NCBI GenBank assembly: GCA_020975725.1
Contig: QXJR01000008.1
Location: 496,001-560,000 of the forward strand
Source of the DNA: Picocystis sp. L7
Lineage: Eukaryota > Chlorophyta > Picocystophyceae > Picocystales > Picocystaceae
Reading direction: 5' to 3'
Length of the DNA: 64,000 bases
Every line of letters starts with the position of its first letter. Positions within the stretch are counted from its first letter, which is position 1. The position numbers and the translations under genes were made by a program. Below are positions 32,904 through 40,685 of this stretch, piece by piece. The notes below the pieces were generated by a model, which saw only the letters and a program-made list of their open reading frames with translations, ran no database searches and was not told where the DNA came from.

Positions 32904-33173
32904 AGCTGCCGTTGTGTGTGCGCCGACGCTTCGTCCGACGCGACGCGAATCGACCATGTACGTCCATCGGCTCGATCCCAGGTCCCCTTCTGCACCATGA
33001 ACCGACGAGGCAAGGGGTTGCACTCAGGATCCTCTGCGCGCTTGGTCCTAGGGCTTTCCCTCGGGGTTCGCCCTACGATTTCTGGGAGAGTATGAATCTG
33101 ATCCGACCTCTCCAGTTGGCACTGTCTCGCCCGTGTGGTGGTTGTGAGAGGGTTCAAGAATTCCTATCGAATA

Positions 33174-33288
33174 TGCGTGAGGTACGGGGATCGATACCCC
33201 GCGACTCCAACCCTTCCCCATCGTTCGTAGAACATCGATGGGGATGAAAAGGGGGTCGTAGCTCAAATGGTAGAGCGCGCGCTTCGCA
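33174..33288 (+). tRNA. Permuted tRNA-Ala (anticodon CGC), 3' half upstream of 5' half
   Basis: The 3' half is 33174-33209 and the 5' half 33252-33288, separated by a 42-bp intervening sequence. Joined in tRNA order they give acceptor GGGGTCG / CGACTCC with all seven pairs, including the alanine identity pair G3:U70, and A73. The D arm is GCTC AAATGGTA GAGC. The anticodon stem CGCGC / GCGTG surrounds loop TTCGCAT. The T arm is CGGGG ATCGATA CCCCG. CCA is not encoded. The flanks form a bulge-helix-bulge: TTCG (33283-33286) pairs with CGAA (33168-33171), with 3-nt bulges CAC and TAT, and AAAGGAA (33290-33296) faces TTCCTAT (33161-33167). Cutting inside each bulge yields exactly nucleotides 37 and 38. 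Position 54 is A instead of T. Known permuted tRNAs mature through a circular intermediate. Confidence 0.9.
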
Positions 33289-33343
33289 CAAAGGAACGGA
33301 CACGCGCACCGCGGATTGTCACCTCGCCAGGGCGAGCGACCAC

Positions 33344-33348
33344 TTTTT
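33344..33348 (+). terminator. Candidate Pol III terminator (TTTTT)
   Basis: A run of five T lies 55 nt after the tRNA 5' half, preceded by a small CTCGC-CAGG-GCGAG hairpin. It is the first T-run of this length downstream and would end transcription of the permuted precursor. Confidence 0.5.
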
Positions 33349-34548
33349 CGACAGTTTTGTGGCATTGGAGACGAGAGGGTGTTCGGGACCCGCTTCCCGA
33401 CGAAATCGCGGGACACCACGATAGTCCCAAAGAGAGGCCGACGGGTGATGGTCGTCACATAGCATATGGCCCTGGATTGTTTTGCTCCCTTCATCTTGGA
33501 TTTGGAGGCGACTAAAAAAATAAGGTCTACGAAGTCTTGTCCGACATAATACAAAGTTATAAATCGATGTCAATCTAGCCCATCGGGCGCACATATTGGC
33601 CAAACTGTACACGTTTTGGGAATGCAATCCCTTGCTCTTGAGCTCCGCCTACGCGGAGGAATGTGCCTTGGAGGACGTCGAGGCGCTTGGGAGGCGGCTC
33701 GTCCTTCGAGGTCAAGATTAACTTCGTTAAACAGTGTGGATGGGGGAAATTAAGTACTTTTCCCAACCGGAGGTCACCCATCCATTGGAGGTTTCCAATG
33801 GGTGAGGACCCAACAGGGGGTTGGGTCCTAGCAACACGTTTTAAGGCTTTAACTTGTACCAAATTTGCCATGCGCCTTGGAAAGGCGTGTTTCCTTGGTC
33901 GTAAACAATTGTTACAGTGGATGGACCAATTTTCTAAAAGGGTTGTCTTCCAAGAAGGTGCTACCCACAATTTCACAAAAACGCTTGTATGGACCTTCCC
34001 ATTATGGCATGGGACTTTTGTTAAAGAACCCCATGGGAGCTTGGGAGCTTGGCAATCTAGAATTGATAAATATATTTTTTGAACGGGCAGACCTTCCACA
34101 AACCGAATATCAAGGATTTGTCCAAACTTCGAGGAGAAGAGGAGGTTAGGGCCCACGCCCAACCTTGCAACGTCTTGCTTGTATTACAATAAAAAGAGCT
34201 TGTCCTTTCTATTGCGGCTTATTACATTCTTGCGTTGTCATCAAGGAATGGTGCTTGTACCATTGCATTGCCATCATGTGCTTTGGAAAAGGGAGATGCC
34301 TAAATGTCGCGCCGTGCTTGGATGTTTGAAACTGGTTGCTCGATTTGGGCGAGCACGTTCATTTGCCTACCATCACTCCGTCTTAAGTATCCAAGCCTTT
34401 CTCCGCCTCCTCCATCTTTCTTCTAGGATCTCGGACCTATCCGCCTTGTGTTCCTCGCCACGTAACCTTTCACGGTTTGGGCCTCGGTTGGTTCGTGTTC
34501 TTGCAATCCCTCCGTCGGTAGTAGACAAACCTTCGTCCTAAACCCTCC
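33349..34548. other. 1.2 kb AT-richer stretch left of the retrotransposon
   Basis: No gene is recognised. Overlapping open frames of 195 codons (minus, 33575-34162) and 139 codons (plus, 33663-34082) face each other, and neither resembles a known family. The texture matches other decayed stretches here. It is the left flank of the LTR element insertion. Confidence 0.4.
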
Positions 34549-35235: not shown

Positions 35236-38200
35236 TCAAAGCTGAAAGTCGTAGATGGCTGCCACTGGATCATACACCATGCTCCTTACTTTCTGCTCTG
35301 TGTAATGCTCTACCTTTCCATCTGTCCATAACACTTCAAACAACCCATTAAGGACGTTGGTCACCAATCCTTGGTAGTATGCAGATTTGTGGTTGCCCAA
35401 ATGGAAAAGTTCTTGCACCACACAGCCAATGAGGTTGGTGGGCACAGCAACAATAGGTCGTCGTCTAGTCTGGTACGGTAGCTTCGCTTGCGTCCAAGTA
35501 TTGATCATGATTGGGTCAGGTGACTGTAGGTAAACTGTCCTCTTGTGCGTCTTGACTGCGTCATAATTCGAGGGGCTGATGCCCTTTTCAGGGATACAGC
35601 CATTGTTCTCCTCGAGAGGTAGGAATTCTTCCAGCAGGGTAGAGGACTCATCCACCCAGAAATAGCGTTGCGACGCGTCAGCCAAGTTGCTTTCAATCCA
35701 GTAACGTACGGGGCGTGCAGGAAACACTGAGTAATCCCGTAACAAGTATCGTCGAATACGATAGGTAGTTGATTCACTTTGCATGGCTGCAGTATCAGGC
35801 AAGGGTGCCGTTGCGGGCTGCCGATGTTCATCCATTGGGAAAAGAGTGAGATCTGAATCCACCAAATGTTCCAACCTGTTGGCGTGGATACGATCTGAAA
35901 AGGCGGAGCCCGGTGGTAGTTCCAGTTGATATGCACCATTCTTCAGCACCTTCTTGATGAGATAAGGACCTACAAAGTAAGGGTCCAATTTGTGCTTATC
36001 GGTGGGCCCCTTGAGCCCATACTGCACCTTCACCTTGTCTCCAACAGCAAACACCTTCTTAGGTCTGTGCGCTGTTGCTGCCGCAACATTCTGCGAAGCC
36101 TTCACCAAGTTTTCCTGTACAACCCGATAGACTGCGCGATGTTGCTCCAGCAGGTCTGTTACTCTTTTATCGAAGGTTGTTACTGTCAGGTGATCAGCAG
36201 GTCCATCCTTTGTGGGCAACTGGAGGTGCCACGGTAGCCTTGATTGACAGCCAAAGAGCAATTCAAAAGGGGAATGTTTGGTTGCATCATGCACAGAATC
36301 ATTGTAAGCATGTGCTGCTGCCTGTAAATACTGATCCCATTGATGTTTGTTCTCGCACGTCGTCCGTAACGTCTGCAGCAGGGTGCGATGTTGCCGTTCT
36401 GCGCCACCCTGAGACTGTGAATGGTACGGCGTTCCGGTTACGTGGCGGACACCCAGCGCGGCACAGAATGCTCGAAATAACGCTCGATAAGCCGGTCCGT
36501 TATCTGTGTGAATATGCACAGGTGTATGGAACCGGTAGACGAGGCTGTCCATAAGACACTGAGCTTGTCTATGAGCACTCCAGGTAGAGTGGATAGGTAT
36601 ATAGATGGCGTATTTAGTAAACCTGTCCACCACTGTCAGTACTGCATTATGACCCAGGGCTGTAAGGGGTAAGTTCTCCACCATATCTAGTACCACCGTG
36701 TGAAAAGGGTAAGGGTGGAACTTCATTTCTGGACAGAGCGGTGTGTGTCGTAACCGGTTACCTGGTTTCTGAAGCTGACAGGCAGGACAGCGAGCGACAA
36801 AGTGCTCGATGTGCGATCGAATACCAGTCCAGGTGAAATGTCGCTTGGCGTCAGCGAGTGTACGGGCTGACCCAAAGTGTCGATGATCGTGCACCATGTG
36901 TAGCAGTTCCTGTCGTAGAGCGTTATCTGCTGGTACCACCAGTGCTGGTTGAGCATTGGCCGATTGCTCGAACAGCAAACCATCGCGCACTGTCGTGCCT
37001 TCCGGCGGTGCGCGCAGTAATTTCTTGTACTCTGGATCTGTTTCAGCGGCGACGCGAATCCTGTCCAGTATGGGAGGCAACCGACCCGTAAGACCTGTGC
37101 GCAACGATTGCGTAGATTGTTGACTTGTAATAGACGCGATTGACCCGCACACAGTCCCAGCAGGACTGCGGCCGGCTAGCAGTCGAAGCGTCCGTGTGTT
37201 GTTTAGCCATCGGTGTAACATGTGTGCAATCCAACCCATGGGGAAGGCGTTGCCGCACATGCGTTGCCGGCTGGTTTCGCTGACGTTGAGCGCTGCAGTG
37301 TCACCAACCTGCATACCGACGAGTCTTTCCCGCTCGCTGATGGTCAACGGGCGTAGGGTCCCATCTTGACTGTGCACCCAGGTGGAACGCGAACGGTCAC
37401 TGTGCGATCGTTCACTGGCCATCAGAGTGGGGCACTTCAAGCGGGGTCGGTTCAATGCGTCCGTAGGTACCTTCGATCCTTCATCTAGGCAATCCTGCCA
37501 GGTCATAGGTATTGTCCCCATTTCTCCAGGATCCTGTTTAAGCGGAGGTAATGATGTCCAGCACAGCCGGACTCGAGCTTGCGCACAGTACTTTGAGAGA
37601 TCTTCGCAGGTGGGTTCTCCAAACCAGTGTGCAATCTTGTCCAGGTGGGTTTTCAAGTGCGGGGCAAACGGCGTACATTCCAATATGTAGTCTGGCGACC
37701 GCAACCGCTTGTGTATCTTTGACACTGCTGTGAACAGTTCACGTTCGTCGTAAAGGCCCAGCGGTGGCTTTGACGGGTCGGTGTTCGCCCGCGAAAATGG
37801 TTGGCAGGGCACCCCAGCAATCAGCAGGTGGACTTGGGGGAGCTTTCGTCGATGCGCCAATTCAGTCACATCGTTTCCATACCGAAAGATGTCCTTGCGC
37901 ATAAAGAGCCCAGGGCGTGCTAAGCGAACCTGGTGGAACACGCGTGCAATTACGCTGCGGCAGTCTTCATTTTGTTCCACTGCTATGTAATCCAAGGTAA
38001 TATTGGTCGATTCTGGTATTACGCATTCCAGCGCACGCAGCGTTGTTCCCATACCTGCACATAAGTCCAAGATGCAATATGTGTCCGTATCGTTCACCTT
38101 AGCTGAGTGCCTGGAAAGGTAATCGGGTCCAACGTTCTCTGTGCCTGGCCTGTACTCCACCTTGAACGGGGCGAAGTACGCCAACTTTTCGATCCATCGC

Positions 38201-39207
38201 ATTTCGCGCGGAGATAGCTGCTCAGTAGCTTTTGTTCCAATAAACTGACTGGCCTTGTTGTCAGTGATGACCGTGAACTGCTGGCCAAACAGGAGGTGCC
38301 TCCAATGCTGCAGTGCATATAATATTGCACATGTCTCCTTCTCAGCAGGATGGTAATTCTGTTGGGCAGCATTGAATTTCTTTGACCAGAACTCAACCGG
38401 ATGCCAACCTCCCTGTTGATCCTGCTGCATCAAAGCTGCTCCCATCCCCACATCGGAAGCGTCGGTCTCGACCCGTATGGGCCTGTCTTCATCAAATAGA
38501 GCCAATACCGGGGCTGTGGTCAAGGCTTTGATGAGCTCATGGTATGCCTTCTCCTGTGGCTCTTTCCAATATGAAGCGAAGCCGTGCTTCAGAGCAGCTT
38601 GATTCAATTCTGTCAAGGGAGCTGCCCGTTCCGGAGGTAGTTCTGTGCGGGGCTCGAATAAATGCTTGTACTGTTTGTTCACAAGGTCGTCCAGCCGCTG
38701 TCGGTGAGCGTCATCAAGAGGCCATTCATCGCTGACCTGACTATGCATGCTGCTGAAGTCTGAATCTTCACTGAGTAGTTCGGGCGTTGTATCTACCGGC
38801 TGAATCATTAGAAGCAGGCAGCCTGGATCCTTCACCGCTTTACGTGCCTCACTTCGGGGCACAATCAGGTCCAGTTTTCTTGAAGATATAAACTGGTGGT
38901 CCCCATAGACAGTAAACTTTGTACCATTGCTACTTCGTAGTACCATGCGATGATTCTGCCAGTCCAGTGCTGTCAAGTGCTTGTGGCAGAAGGTTGCTCC
39001 CAGAATGCAGTCAAAGGTCTCCAGAGGAGCAACTCCGAAGTCGATGCAGGCCTGGAACCCATCGATCGAGAATTGCGCTTTAATTACTGGGGCAGTGTGG
39101 ACCTGCTGGCCCACAGCCACGCTATAATTAAAGGCCGCTGATGTATACTGCCAGGACAGTCCCTTAGGGTCAGCTTGCTGCAGCTCTTTGAAGAGGCGTT
39201 CGCTCAT
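35236..39207 (-). CDS. Retrotransposon pol frame with RNase H, C5-DNA methyltransferase and integrase
   Basis: A long frame of the LTR element. Parts in order: a retroviral-type protease-like region (about residues 30-120), RNase H (about 240-370, with VETDASDVGMGAAL and TDNKASQF), and a C5 DNA methyltransferase (about 378-670). The last has the SAM motif LDLCAGMGTTLRAL, the catalytic PCQ motif in AGVPCQPFSRAN, and the final motif MCGNAFPMGW. Integrase follows (about 765-1000) with its HHCC finger and the D, D and E residues in VVLDMVENL, HTDNGPA and GGAERQHR, then an integrase C-terminal tail. A methyltransferase between RNase H and integrase is not part of a standard gypsy element; captured methyltransferases are known in some algal and dinoflagellate retroelements. 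This frame is one part of a broken element. Confidence 0.85.
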   Translation of the reverse strand: MSERLFKELQQADPKGLSWQYTSAAFNYSVAVGQQVHTAPVIKAQFSIDGFQACIDFGVAPLETFDCILGATFCHKHLTALDWQNHRMVLRSSNGTKFTVYGDHQFISSRKLDLIVPRSEARKAVKDPGCLLLMIQPVDTTPELLSEDSDFSSMHSQVSDEWPLDDAHRQRLDDLVNKQYKHLFEPRTELPPERAAPLTELNQAALKHGFASYWKEPQEKAYHELIKALTTAPVLALFDEDRPIRVETDASDVGMGAALMQQDQQGGWHPVEFWSKKFNAAQQNYHPAEKETCAILYALQHWRHLLFGQQFTVITDNKASQFIGTKATEQLSPREMRWIEKLAYFAPFKVEYRPGTENVGPDYLSRHSAKVNDTDTYCILDLCAGMGTTLRALECVIPESTNITLDYIAVEQNEDCRSVIARVFHQVRLARPGLFMRKDIFRYGNDVTELAHRRKLPQVHLLIAGVPCQPFSRANTDPSKPPLGLYDERELFTAVSKIHKRLRSPDYILECTPFAPHLKTHLDKIAHWFGEPTCEDLSKYCAQARVRLCWTSLPPLKQDPGEMGTIPMTWQDCLDEGSKVPTDALNRPRLKCPTLMASERSHSDRSRSTWVHSQDGTLRPLTISERERLVGMQVGDTAALNVSETSRQRMCGNAFPMGWIAHMLHRWLNNTRTLRLLAGRSPAGTVCGSIASITSQQSTQSLRTGLTGRLPPILDRIRVAAETDPEYKKLLRAPPEGTTVRDGLLFEQSANAQPALVVPADNALRQELLHMVHDHRHFGSARTLADAKRHFTWTGIRSHIEHFVARCPACQLQKPGNRLRHTPLCPEMKFHPYPFHTVVLDMVENLPLTALGHNAVLTVVDRFTKYAIYIPIHSTWSAHRQAQCLMDSLVYRFHTPVHIHTDNGPAYRALFRAFCAALGVRHVTGTPYHSQSQGGAERQHRTLLQTLRTTCENKHQWDQYLQAAAHAYNDSVHDATKHSPFELLFGCQSRLPWHLQLPTKDGPADHLTVTTFDKRVTDLLEQHRAVYRVVQENLVKASQNVAAATAHRPKKVFAVGDKVKVQYGLKGPTDKHKLDPYFVGPYLIKKVLKNGAYQLELPPGSAFSDRIHANRLEHLVDSDLTLFPMDEHRQPATAPLPDTAAMQSESTTYRIRRYLLRDYSVFPARPVRYWIESNLADASQRYFWVDESSTLLEEFLPLEENNGCIPEKGISPSNYDAVKTHKRTVYLQSPDPIMINTWTQAKLPYQTRRRPIVAVPTNLIGCVVQELFHLGNHKSAYYQGLVTNVLNGLFEVLWTDGKVEHYTEQKVRSMVYDPVAAIYDFQL

Positions 39208-39422: not shown

Positions 39423-40685
39423 TCAGTTTTTTGGGGCACCCATTACGGATGCCATTTTGCAGGCTGCCTGATCATGTCCGTAACGGCGACAGCGTAGGCA
39501 CAGCGCGTTCGCCAGGCAGAGATCCTTTTCTTCTTGAGTAAGTTTTGCACCTAGGGGCTTGTTGGCCAGCCTAGTCTGCACCTTCACGATCGAACTCTGC
39601 TGTTCTTCATCCAATTCATCGAAGCGCTTTCGCTGTCGCTTGGCTGGCCCATTCACCCTTGAGTTACCTGGATGCGATGACGGTAACGCTGCCGCTGTGG
39701 CTATGCTGGATCGATTTGGAAAGCCATGCATGGTACCGGTGTTACGGACTCCTTTGCTCTGCAATTTCCAGTTGTCCGCTGGCTGTCTTGAGTCTTTCCT
39801 TGCTGATTCATGTACTTCCCGTTCCAGTTTAAAGATAATGGCAGCAAGGTTTCCAGGCTCCATGTCAGGAGCTTTGTCCACATCAATTAGATGATCCAGG
39901 TGCTTGTATAAAGCTCTTTGCAAGTAGCCTGGGAGGCCATGTTGCAAACGGGCCGAGATGTCATGTTCCGTGAGAGTCCGGCACACAGGTGAGGAGCTTG
40001 CATTAACTACAAAGCTCAGTTGCACCAACCTGTTGAGGAACTGCAGCACATTTTCTGTCCGCTTCATACGGGCGGTGTGGAACTCCCGCCAAGCCTCCGG
40101 TCCTGGGTCTTGATTTTGGAAGGTTTTACGGAGGTAACCATACAAGTCTTCGACGGAGTTAAGGGCTGCCGGGTCTCTCATAATGAGGTTTTGAACCATG
40201 GATTTTGCCGTACCGCCGAGTGCTTGATTAATGGCTAACACAAGTTGTTCCATCGGGCGGTTAAAGGCATATGCTTGGCACCAACAAAGGACATCCCTAT
40301 ACCAATATGTAAGGGCATAGGGGTTGTCCTCAAGTTCCGTACCGGTAAACTTGTCCGGTTTCTCGAGGGACACCTTTGAGATATTCTTGGAATCTTGTAA
40401 AGCCATGCCATAGAGGCTGATGAGATGAGGTAAACCTTCTTGCTCTGATGGTGTGACTTCTTGTAGGCTCGGCTCCTTTGGCTCCGCGAGGTGTACACCC
40501 TCAGGGCCGTCTTCAACCACCATCTCTTCTTCTTCCTCACTTTCTTCAACTTTGTGAGCTTGGAGCTTCTCAATGAGTTGCTGGAGCTCAGCAATCTTCG
40601 TCTCAAGGGAGGACCTCTCCTCCCGTTCTTGTTCGAGTTCCCTACGAAGCGTGCTCATGCGGGTTGCATGGTCGCTCTCCTCCAT
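39423..40685 (-). CDS. Retrotransposon gag frame with zinc knuckle
   Basis: A 420-codon frame at the 5' end of the element. It starts with a coiled-coil region (about residues 8-50). A retrotransposon gag-type core follows (about 125-280, with YALTYWYRDVLCWCQAYAF), then a basic linker and a CCHC zinc knuckle near the end (CLRCRRYGHDQAAC). Gag would form the particle and bind element RNA. It belongs to the LTR element described as a fossil. Confidence 0.8.
   Translation of the reverse strand: MEESDHATRMSTLRRELEQEREERSSLETKIAELQQLIEKLQAHKVEESEEEEEMVVEDGPEGVHLAEPKEPSLQEVTPSEQEGLPHLISLYGMALQDSKNISKVSLEKPDKFTGTELEDNPYALTYWYRDVLCWCQAYAFNRPMEQLVLAINQALGGTAKSMVQNLIMRDPAALNSVEDLYGYLRKTFQNQDPGPEAWREFHTARMKRTENVLQFLNRLVQLSFVVNASSSPVCRTLTEHDISARLQHGLPGYLQRALYKHLDHLIDVDKAPDMEPGNLAAIIFKLEREVHESARKDSRQPADNWKLQSKGVRNTGTMHGFPNRSSIATAAALPSSHPGNSRVNGPAKRQRKRFDELDEEQQSSIVKVQTRLANKPLGAKLTQEEKDLCLANALCLRCRRYGHDQAACKMASVMGAPKN

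Follow-up and report, generated by a model that had tools for sequence, protein, structure and literature searches.

A circularly permuted tRNA-Ala(CGC) gene and five further permuted tRNA genes in the genome of a green alga, most likely a picocystophyte

Positions 33161–33296 of the window (the whole stretch of DNA analysed here, 64,000 nt, corresponding to contig C6:496001–560000 of an assembly of 20,525,659 bases in 30 contigs) very probably constitute a functional, nuclear, circularly permuted tRNA-Ala(CGC) gene of type II, i.e., with its junction between tRNA positions 37 and 38, as judged from its sequence and from comparison with five further genes of the same type in this assembly.

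Anatomy of the permuted tRNA-Ala(CGC) locus

The presence of a permuted tRNA-Ala(CGC) gene in the window was confirmed, and the coordinates of the original prediction proved exact. Both halves are located on the forward strand in swapped order: the 3′ half (33174–33209, tRNA positions 38–73), comprising the T arm and discriminator A73, lies upstream of the 5′ half (33252–33288, positions 1–37), comprising the D arm and the CGC anticodon. The B box region (in the T arm) thus precedes the A box region (in the D arm), as had been anticipated. The acceptor ends are separated by a linker of 42 nt on the same strand (33210–33251), which contains a 9-bp hairpin and lacks a run of four T. CCA is not encoded at the locus; A73 is followed by ACC.

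Joined at 37/38, the halves form a tRNA of 73 nt with the full cloverleaf that had been foreseen, in which all 21 stem pairs are standard (seven in the acceptor stem including G3:U70, four in the D stem, and five each in the anticodon and T stems). ARAGORN called the reordered 73-mer, supplied with CCA and random flanks, as tRNA-Ala(cgc) and made no tRNA call at the unrearranged locus; Rfam searches at the gathering threshold likewise yielded no match in the window. The covariance model R1, trained on 14 ordinary nuclear tRNAs of this genome with their halves swapped plus two permuted Ala genes, found the locus at 68 bits (E 1.8e-18 in 81 kb), with the gene itself among the 16 training rows. 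Since both permuted Ala genes belong to the training set, they match R1 by construction. In a first alignment (A1, 22 rows) the anticodon stem was misplaced in rows with a short variable loop, and six rows were dropped to give A2 with 16 rows. Departures from the eukaryotic tRNA consensus in the Ala genes are A at position 54 and A at position 48; the ordinary tRNA-Ala(TGC) gene of this genome has identical letters there.

About 2 kb from the permuted gene, we observed a retrotransposon-like frame of 1323 aa on the reverse strand (window 35239–39207) with reverse-transcriptase RNase H, integrase zinc-binding and integrase core domains. Between the RNase H and integrase parts it matches a C-5 cytosine DNA methylase (E 3.4e-8), and the encoded retrotransposon-like protein seems to carry part of such an enzyme. 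The next frame (39426–40685) has a gag-like match under the curated cut-off.

The most likely placement of the host, judged by a single protein, is among the picocystophytes (class Picocystophyceae), as a species other than Picocystis salinarum: plastid NdhB on contig C30 is 81% identical to that of P. salinarum and 50% identical to that of the next named alga, Nephroselmis pyriformis, and 100% identical proteins occur in contigs of two sources. An initial assignment to the Chloropicophyceae was abandoned in view of these NdhB matches. C30 is organelle-like (61.6 kb, 36% GC in the 40 kb read), with psbA, atpA, tufA, chlL and ndh frames recognized by eye. Contig C29 is organelle-like as well (97 kb, 66% GC in the 38 kb read) and has mitochondrial reading frames. 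Its tRNA genes reappear at constant offsets of 37,159 and 80,888 bases, in direct as well as inverted order; this would fit a circle of about 81 kb with large repeats whose sequence was continued beyond its starting point.

Five further permuted tRNA genes and the ordinary tRNA gene set

The assembly contains at least six permuted tRNA genes, located on six contigs and all with the junction at 37/38. In addition to Ala(CGC), these are Ala(AGC) (C26:393891–393991, reverse strand, linker 28 nt), identified by DNA search with the window's permuted stretch; Pro(AGG) (C24:806384–806528, reverse strand, linker 73 nt), matching R1 at 28.1 bits, or 39.0 bits without filters; Ser(CGA) (C10:633383–633508, reverse strand, linker 44 nt; R1 23.2 bits); Ser(AGA) (C1:1333142–1333306, reverse strand, linker 83 nt; R1 14.1 bits), identified by DNA search with Ser(CGA) and Pro(AGG) as the query; and Arg(TCT) (C4:241300–241405, forward strand, linker 33 nt), detected by a script that looks for cloverleaves in permuted order. 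All six have the 3′ half first, linkers between 28 and 83 nt and acceptor stems that match within each gene. ARAGORN called every one of them after reordering and none in raw form.

R1 and the script were run on neighbourhoods of places matching B-box words. The word GGTTCRAWTCC occurred at 144 places (12 for the control), from 100 of which, after excluding eight known tRNAs and the one place in the window, 91 neighbourhoods were taken; GGTTCGAGYCC occurred at 61 places (control 26), 41 of them nuclear, from which 38 neighbourhoods were taken and three known tRNAs excluded. The number of six is a lower bound because part of the B-box places was covered and the 37/38 type alone was sought. Written after the first five genes had been identified, the script returned 16 rows from 361 kb of partly overlapping loci, which represent the six genes and one false positive: it recovered the earlier five and added Arg(TCT), with scores of 20–21 for the six and 21 for Ala(CGC). 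Twenty shuffles in 40-base blocks gave five hits with scores of 17–18 and none of 19 or above. The false positive on the organelle contig C29 (score 19, three of four bulge-helix-bulge pairs, three rows) is a tandem Ser-Ala pair. We also rejected a 37.7-bit R1 match by the ordinary Ala(TGC) gene, which combines its true 5′ half with chance upstream letters. Exact-pattern scans for permuted Ala genes in collections of viral contigs and of genome contigs returned no hits. Common ancestry of the permuted genes was not convincing from their flanks: among 15 pairs compared in three parts, six comparisons reached p < 0.05 uncorrected (best p 0.013).

In the permuted Ala(AGC) gene, the linker ends in CGACTC, which nearly repeats the 3′ strand of the acceptor stem, CGACTCC, and could therefore compete for the 5′ acceptor strand. 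The acceptor stem of this gene was absent from all six of its minimum-energy folds.

Ordinary genes for the same tRNAs were sought in the assembly by DNA search. With mature Ala(CGC) as the query (E ≤ 10), neither an ordinary Ala(CGC) nor an ordinary Ala(AGC) was listed; the five pieces found belong to three places, namely the two permuted Ala genes and the ordinary tRNA-Ala(TGC) on C8, which matched in one piece with 88% identity. The combined Ser(CGA) and Pro(AGG) query listed no ordinary Ser(CGA), Ser(AGA) or Pro(AGG), and no ordinary Arg(TCT) was listed in its search either. For Ala(AGC) and Ser(AGA), this coverage comes only from the nearly identical Ala(CGC) and Ser(CGA) used as queries. 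Such searches detect close copies only, as the Ser query missed an ordinary Ser(TGA) on C22 that was seen by ARAGORN. An RF00005 search of the assembly listed at least 63 matches from 710 candidates (lowest 56 bits), 22 of them on C1–C28, and the 22 genes examined among the matches listed include no Ala(CGC). In 20 mechanically picked reading frames of the window, two of them retrotransposon-like, GCU and GCC together account for 47% and GCG for 18% of the Ala codons. Eukaryotic tRNA-Ala(AGC), modified to IGC, decodes GCU and GCC.

Several observations on other tRNA-like places were made along the way. ARAGORN called a tRNA-Sec(TCA) in C6:605530–606050 (positions 190–276 of this locus) and intron-bearing genes for Met(CAT) (18 nt, L134), Leu(CAA) (126 nt, L096) and, doubtfully, His(GTG) (29 nt, L118); by eye, the Met(CAT) gene has an initiator-like T loop. 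The word GGTTCRANNCC occurred at 1190 places genome-wide and its reversed pattern at 337; tRNA genes would not account for so many occurrences. Many overlapping GGTTCGAACCC palindromes were among the places listed, and six copies with a spacing of 88 bases are located at C1:1355911–1356361.

The bulge-helix-bulge at the junction and alternative explanations

In the window gene, the leader and trailer can be paired with each other and with the anticodon arm to give a bulge-helix-bulge (BHB), all parts of which are on the forward strand. An outer helix is formed by the leader strand 33161–33167 and the trailer strand 33290–33296, with six of seven positions paired and one A.A mismatch. The central helix of 4 bp pairs the leader strand CGAA (33168–33171) with TTCG (33283–33286), i.e., tRNA positions 32–35. 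It is flanked by the 3-nt bulge TAT (33172–33174), where cleavage by the Sen endonuclease is predicted at 33173/33174, the 5′ end of the 3′ half, and by a second bulge, CAC (33287–33289), consisting of positions 36 and 37 and the first trailer base, with a predicted cut at 33288/33289. A BHB with two 3-nt bulges had been proposed. The TAT bulge and the central helix hold, whereas the second bulge comprises 3 nt by a generous count alone, if the lone A-U pair (33167/33290) beside the A.A mismatch is accepted; the fold programme placed a 2x5 internal loop there instead. A relaxed hBH form is given for green algae in a review of permuted tRNA genes (PMC3978253).

Minimum-energy folding recovered the permuted cloverleaf together with the BHB in three stretches of the window gene. 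The fold of 33157–33297 reached −52.8 kcal/mol (z −3.3), and none of 200 shuffles was as low. In six stretches with symmetric flanks, the BHB was absent from all minimum-energy folds of the window gene and the anticodon stem was lost as well; for this reason, folding energy is by itself insufficient to prove the BHB. Over the six genes with six flank lengths each, the full central helix appeared in 8 of 36 minimum-energy folds.

The comparison of the six genes supports the BHB. Leader bases −6 to −3 pair with tRNA positions 32–35 at all four positions in each of them, leaving, at identical spacing, a 3-nt bulge to which position 38 belongs. Shifting the leader by 1 to 5 places (−3 to +5) gave 48 comparisons, not one of which reached four pairs. 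The leader tracks the anticodon, having G opposite C, U opposite A and A opposite U at position 34. We aligned the six junctions without gaps (A3) and scored the pairs of the anticodon stem and the BHB helix. All 54 cells are paired, including 24 of 24 in the BHB helix, and seven of the nine pairs show two-sided changes. The covariation score was 0.963 vs a shuffled mean of 0.257, and none of 500 shuffles was as high; two cruder measures, the count of changed pairs and the count of pair types, were matched by 7 and 15 of 500 shuffles, respectively. Slid versions of the structure were paired at 18.5–38.9%, a drop that arises partly because the structure was derived from those very sequences. 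The six genes do not amount to six independent tests, as the two Ala genes are related to each other and so are the two Ser genes. The BHB was not a criterion in finding the other five genes, and the script used it in the 361-kb run for ties in register only. The outer helix is good in the window gene alone and weak or interrupted in the other five.

These results bear on how the locus should be read. The tandem-duplication-and-loss model (PMC3978253) predicts the observed order of halves also for a relic, i.e., a pseudogene left from a tandem pair of intron-bearing tRNA-Ala genes after loss of expression. We consider this improbable: every stem pair of the reordered tRNA is standard, a covarying BHB helix has been kept in six genes, and no ordinary Ala(CGC) or Ala(AGC) gene was listed, yet the codons that such tRNAs would read make up much of the Ala codon usage given above. 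Because five more genes share the junction and the covarying BHB helix, a functional Ala(CGC) gene, as originally proposed, is far likelier than a relic.

Still less probable is a split tRNA, with the halves transcribed apart and trans-spliced as in some archaea. Separate halves joined by a BHB, as well as a linker that folds by itself, would suit such an arrangement, but the halves lie on one strand, the short linkers are free of runs of four T in all six genes, and the 3′-then-5′ order is the same in all of them, while split genes presumably need no fixed order. The analysis rests on an assembly rather than on reads, which leaves room for an assembly artefact or a chance juxtaposition of two half-genes. 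Such an origin is very remote, considering that six loci on six contigs share the same anatomy with acceptor stems matching within each, and that shuffled sequence yielded no script hit scoring 19 or higher.

Maturation, transcription and origin of the permuted genes

A pathway for permuted tRNAs via a circular intermediate has been reviewed (PMC3978253), and the transcription, circle formation and maturation of the gene described here are inferred by analogy with the published work on Cyanidioschyzon and prasinophytes. A single RNA comprising leader, 3′ half, linker, 5′ half and trailer would be transcribed, and the leader and trailer ends would fold with the anticodon arm into the BHB. The Sen2/Sen34 endonuclease would then cut after position 37 and before position 38, and RtcB or another ligase would join 37 to 38, resulting in a circular RNA whose acceptor ends are connected through the 42-nt linker. 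This linker would be excised by RNase P and tRNase Z, CCA would be added, and the mature tRNA-Ala(CGC) would decode GCG. As the tRNA halves are stored in swapped order, the cell presumably must circularise and recut each transcript. Genes for Sen34 (L058), Sen2 (L059) and RtcB (L154) are present in the genome according to matches to PDB chains. The RNA ligase family RNA_lig_T4_1 (PF09511) had no match in the genome, and the control genomes gave no match either.

A candidate RNA polymerase III terminator, TTTTT, is located 56 nt past the 5′ half of Ala(CGC) on the forward strand (33344–33348), and TTTT follows at 33355–33358. In all six permuted genes the first run of at least four T begins 29–67 nt past the 5′ half, and such a run is absent from all six linkers. 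A T run is weak evidence for a terminator, because 15 of 20 ordinary tRNA genes also have one within 60 nt. Upstream, no TATA-like word was found within 60 nt of Ala(CGC), nor in the same interval of four other permuted genes; the remaining one has TTTAA at −42. Ordinary tRNA genes lacked an upstream TATA-like word in 16 of 20 cases, with a word list slightly different from that of the permuted-gene scan. The A+T content upstream was 35–50% for permuted and 32–65% for ordinary tRNA genes. For the permuted genes of green algae, an ambiguous AT-rich upstream region has been described, and the order of B box before A box has been called unsuitable for TFIIIC (PMC3978253). We found a match to the B-block TFIIIC domain (PF04182, 46.8 bits) in an open frame of 1662 aa. 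PF04182 also matched in 8 of 14 prokaryote controls, four of them above the cut-off, so this TFIIIC candidate is a lead only. Should TFIIIC be present, genes with the B box before the A box and mostly without TATA would imply either that TFIIIC tolerates the reversed order or that another promoter is used.

Regarding the known systems, the original prediction named Cyanidioschyzon, prasinophytes and an archaeon but omitted Auxenochlorella (PMC12633428) and the chlorarachniophyte nucleomorphs (PMC4494063). Table 1 of the review (PMC3978253) comprises 34 permuted genes. Those of Ostreococcus and Micromonas (Maruyama 2010, as cited there), which most likely belong to a class other than that of the present host, resemble ours in being nuclear, with a 37/38 junction and a relaxed BHB; their linkers measure 11–64 bp vs 28–83 nt here. 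Of the isoacceptors permuted in the present genome, all four Ostreococcus and Micromonas species share permuted Ser(CGA), M. pusilla also Ser(AGA), and O. tauri also Arg(TCT) (PMC3978253). In the green-derived chlorarachniophyte nucleomorphs, Ser(AGA) and Ser(CGA) are permuted at 37/38 as well, but the linkers of Bigelowiella natans measure 5 bp (PMC4494063, PMC3978253). The trebouxiophyte Auxenochlorella UTEX 250-A also has permuted tRNAs in a green algal nucleus, and there, too, an ordinary tRNA finder gave an incomplete set (PMC12633428, PMC12636532).

Cyanidioschyzon merolae (Soma 2007, as cited in PMC3978253), in which the circle and aminoacylation were demonstrated, shares with our genes the upstream 3′ half, the BHB at the junction, a downstream T run and the lack of an encoded CCA. 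It differs in having four junction types, whereas all six genes here are of the 37/38 type to which our script was limited; in the TATA-like elements upstream of most of its permuted genes, absent in five of six here; and in that its TFC1 and TFC3 homologues were not identified, while we have a B-block TFIIIC candidate (PMC3978253). In the archaeon Thermofilum pendens the halves are swapped in the same way, but the junction is at 59/60 and CCA is encoded (PMC3978253).

The only permuted Ala gene in Table 1 of the review is Ala(TGC) of C. merolae, at 59/60; the green algae of this table have no permuted Ala, in contrast to the two found here, and Pro is not listed at all (PMC3978253). A permuted Ala gene in a green alga and a permuted Pro gene are therefore new relative to this 2014 table. 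Their novelty is provisional, because it was assessed from openly licensed papers, and the Auxenochlorella isotypes and junctions are given in a supplementary figure. In the same literature, we found no paper on permuted tRNAs in Picocystis, nor, among the titles listed, one concerning its class. The occurrence of permuted Ser(AGA) and Ser(CGA) also in Micromonas and in chlorarachniophyte nucleomorphs hints at old inheritance. We put forward as a tentative idea, which in its entirety we consider rather doubtful, that permuted tRNAs, above all these two, may be an old shared trait of chlorophytes and not the product of repeated late accidents, and that they may be transcribed with TFIIIC present despite the order of B box before A box and mostly without TATA.

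Our results enlarge the range of a rare gene architecture by what seems to be a further class of green algae. They also illustrate that ordinary tRNA annotation overlooks such genes, ARAGORN having missed all six. Because a single genome provides six or more permuted genes sharing one junction type, the BHB can be judged by comparison and not by folding alone. Comparison of the Ser genes among classes could tell whether they were inherited from long ago or arose repeatedly, and the genome is suited to asking how RNA polymerase III starts on reversed promoter boxes.
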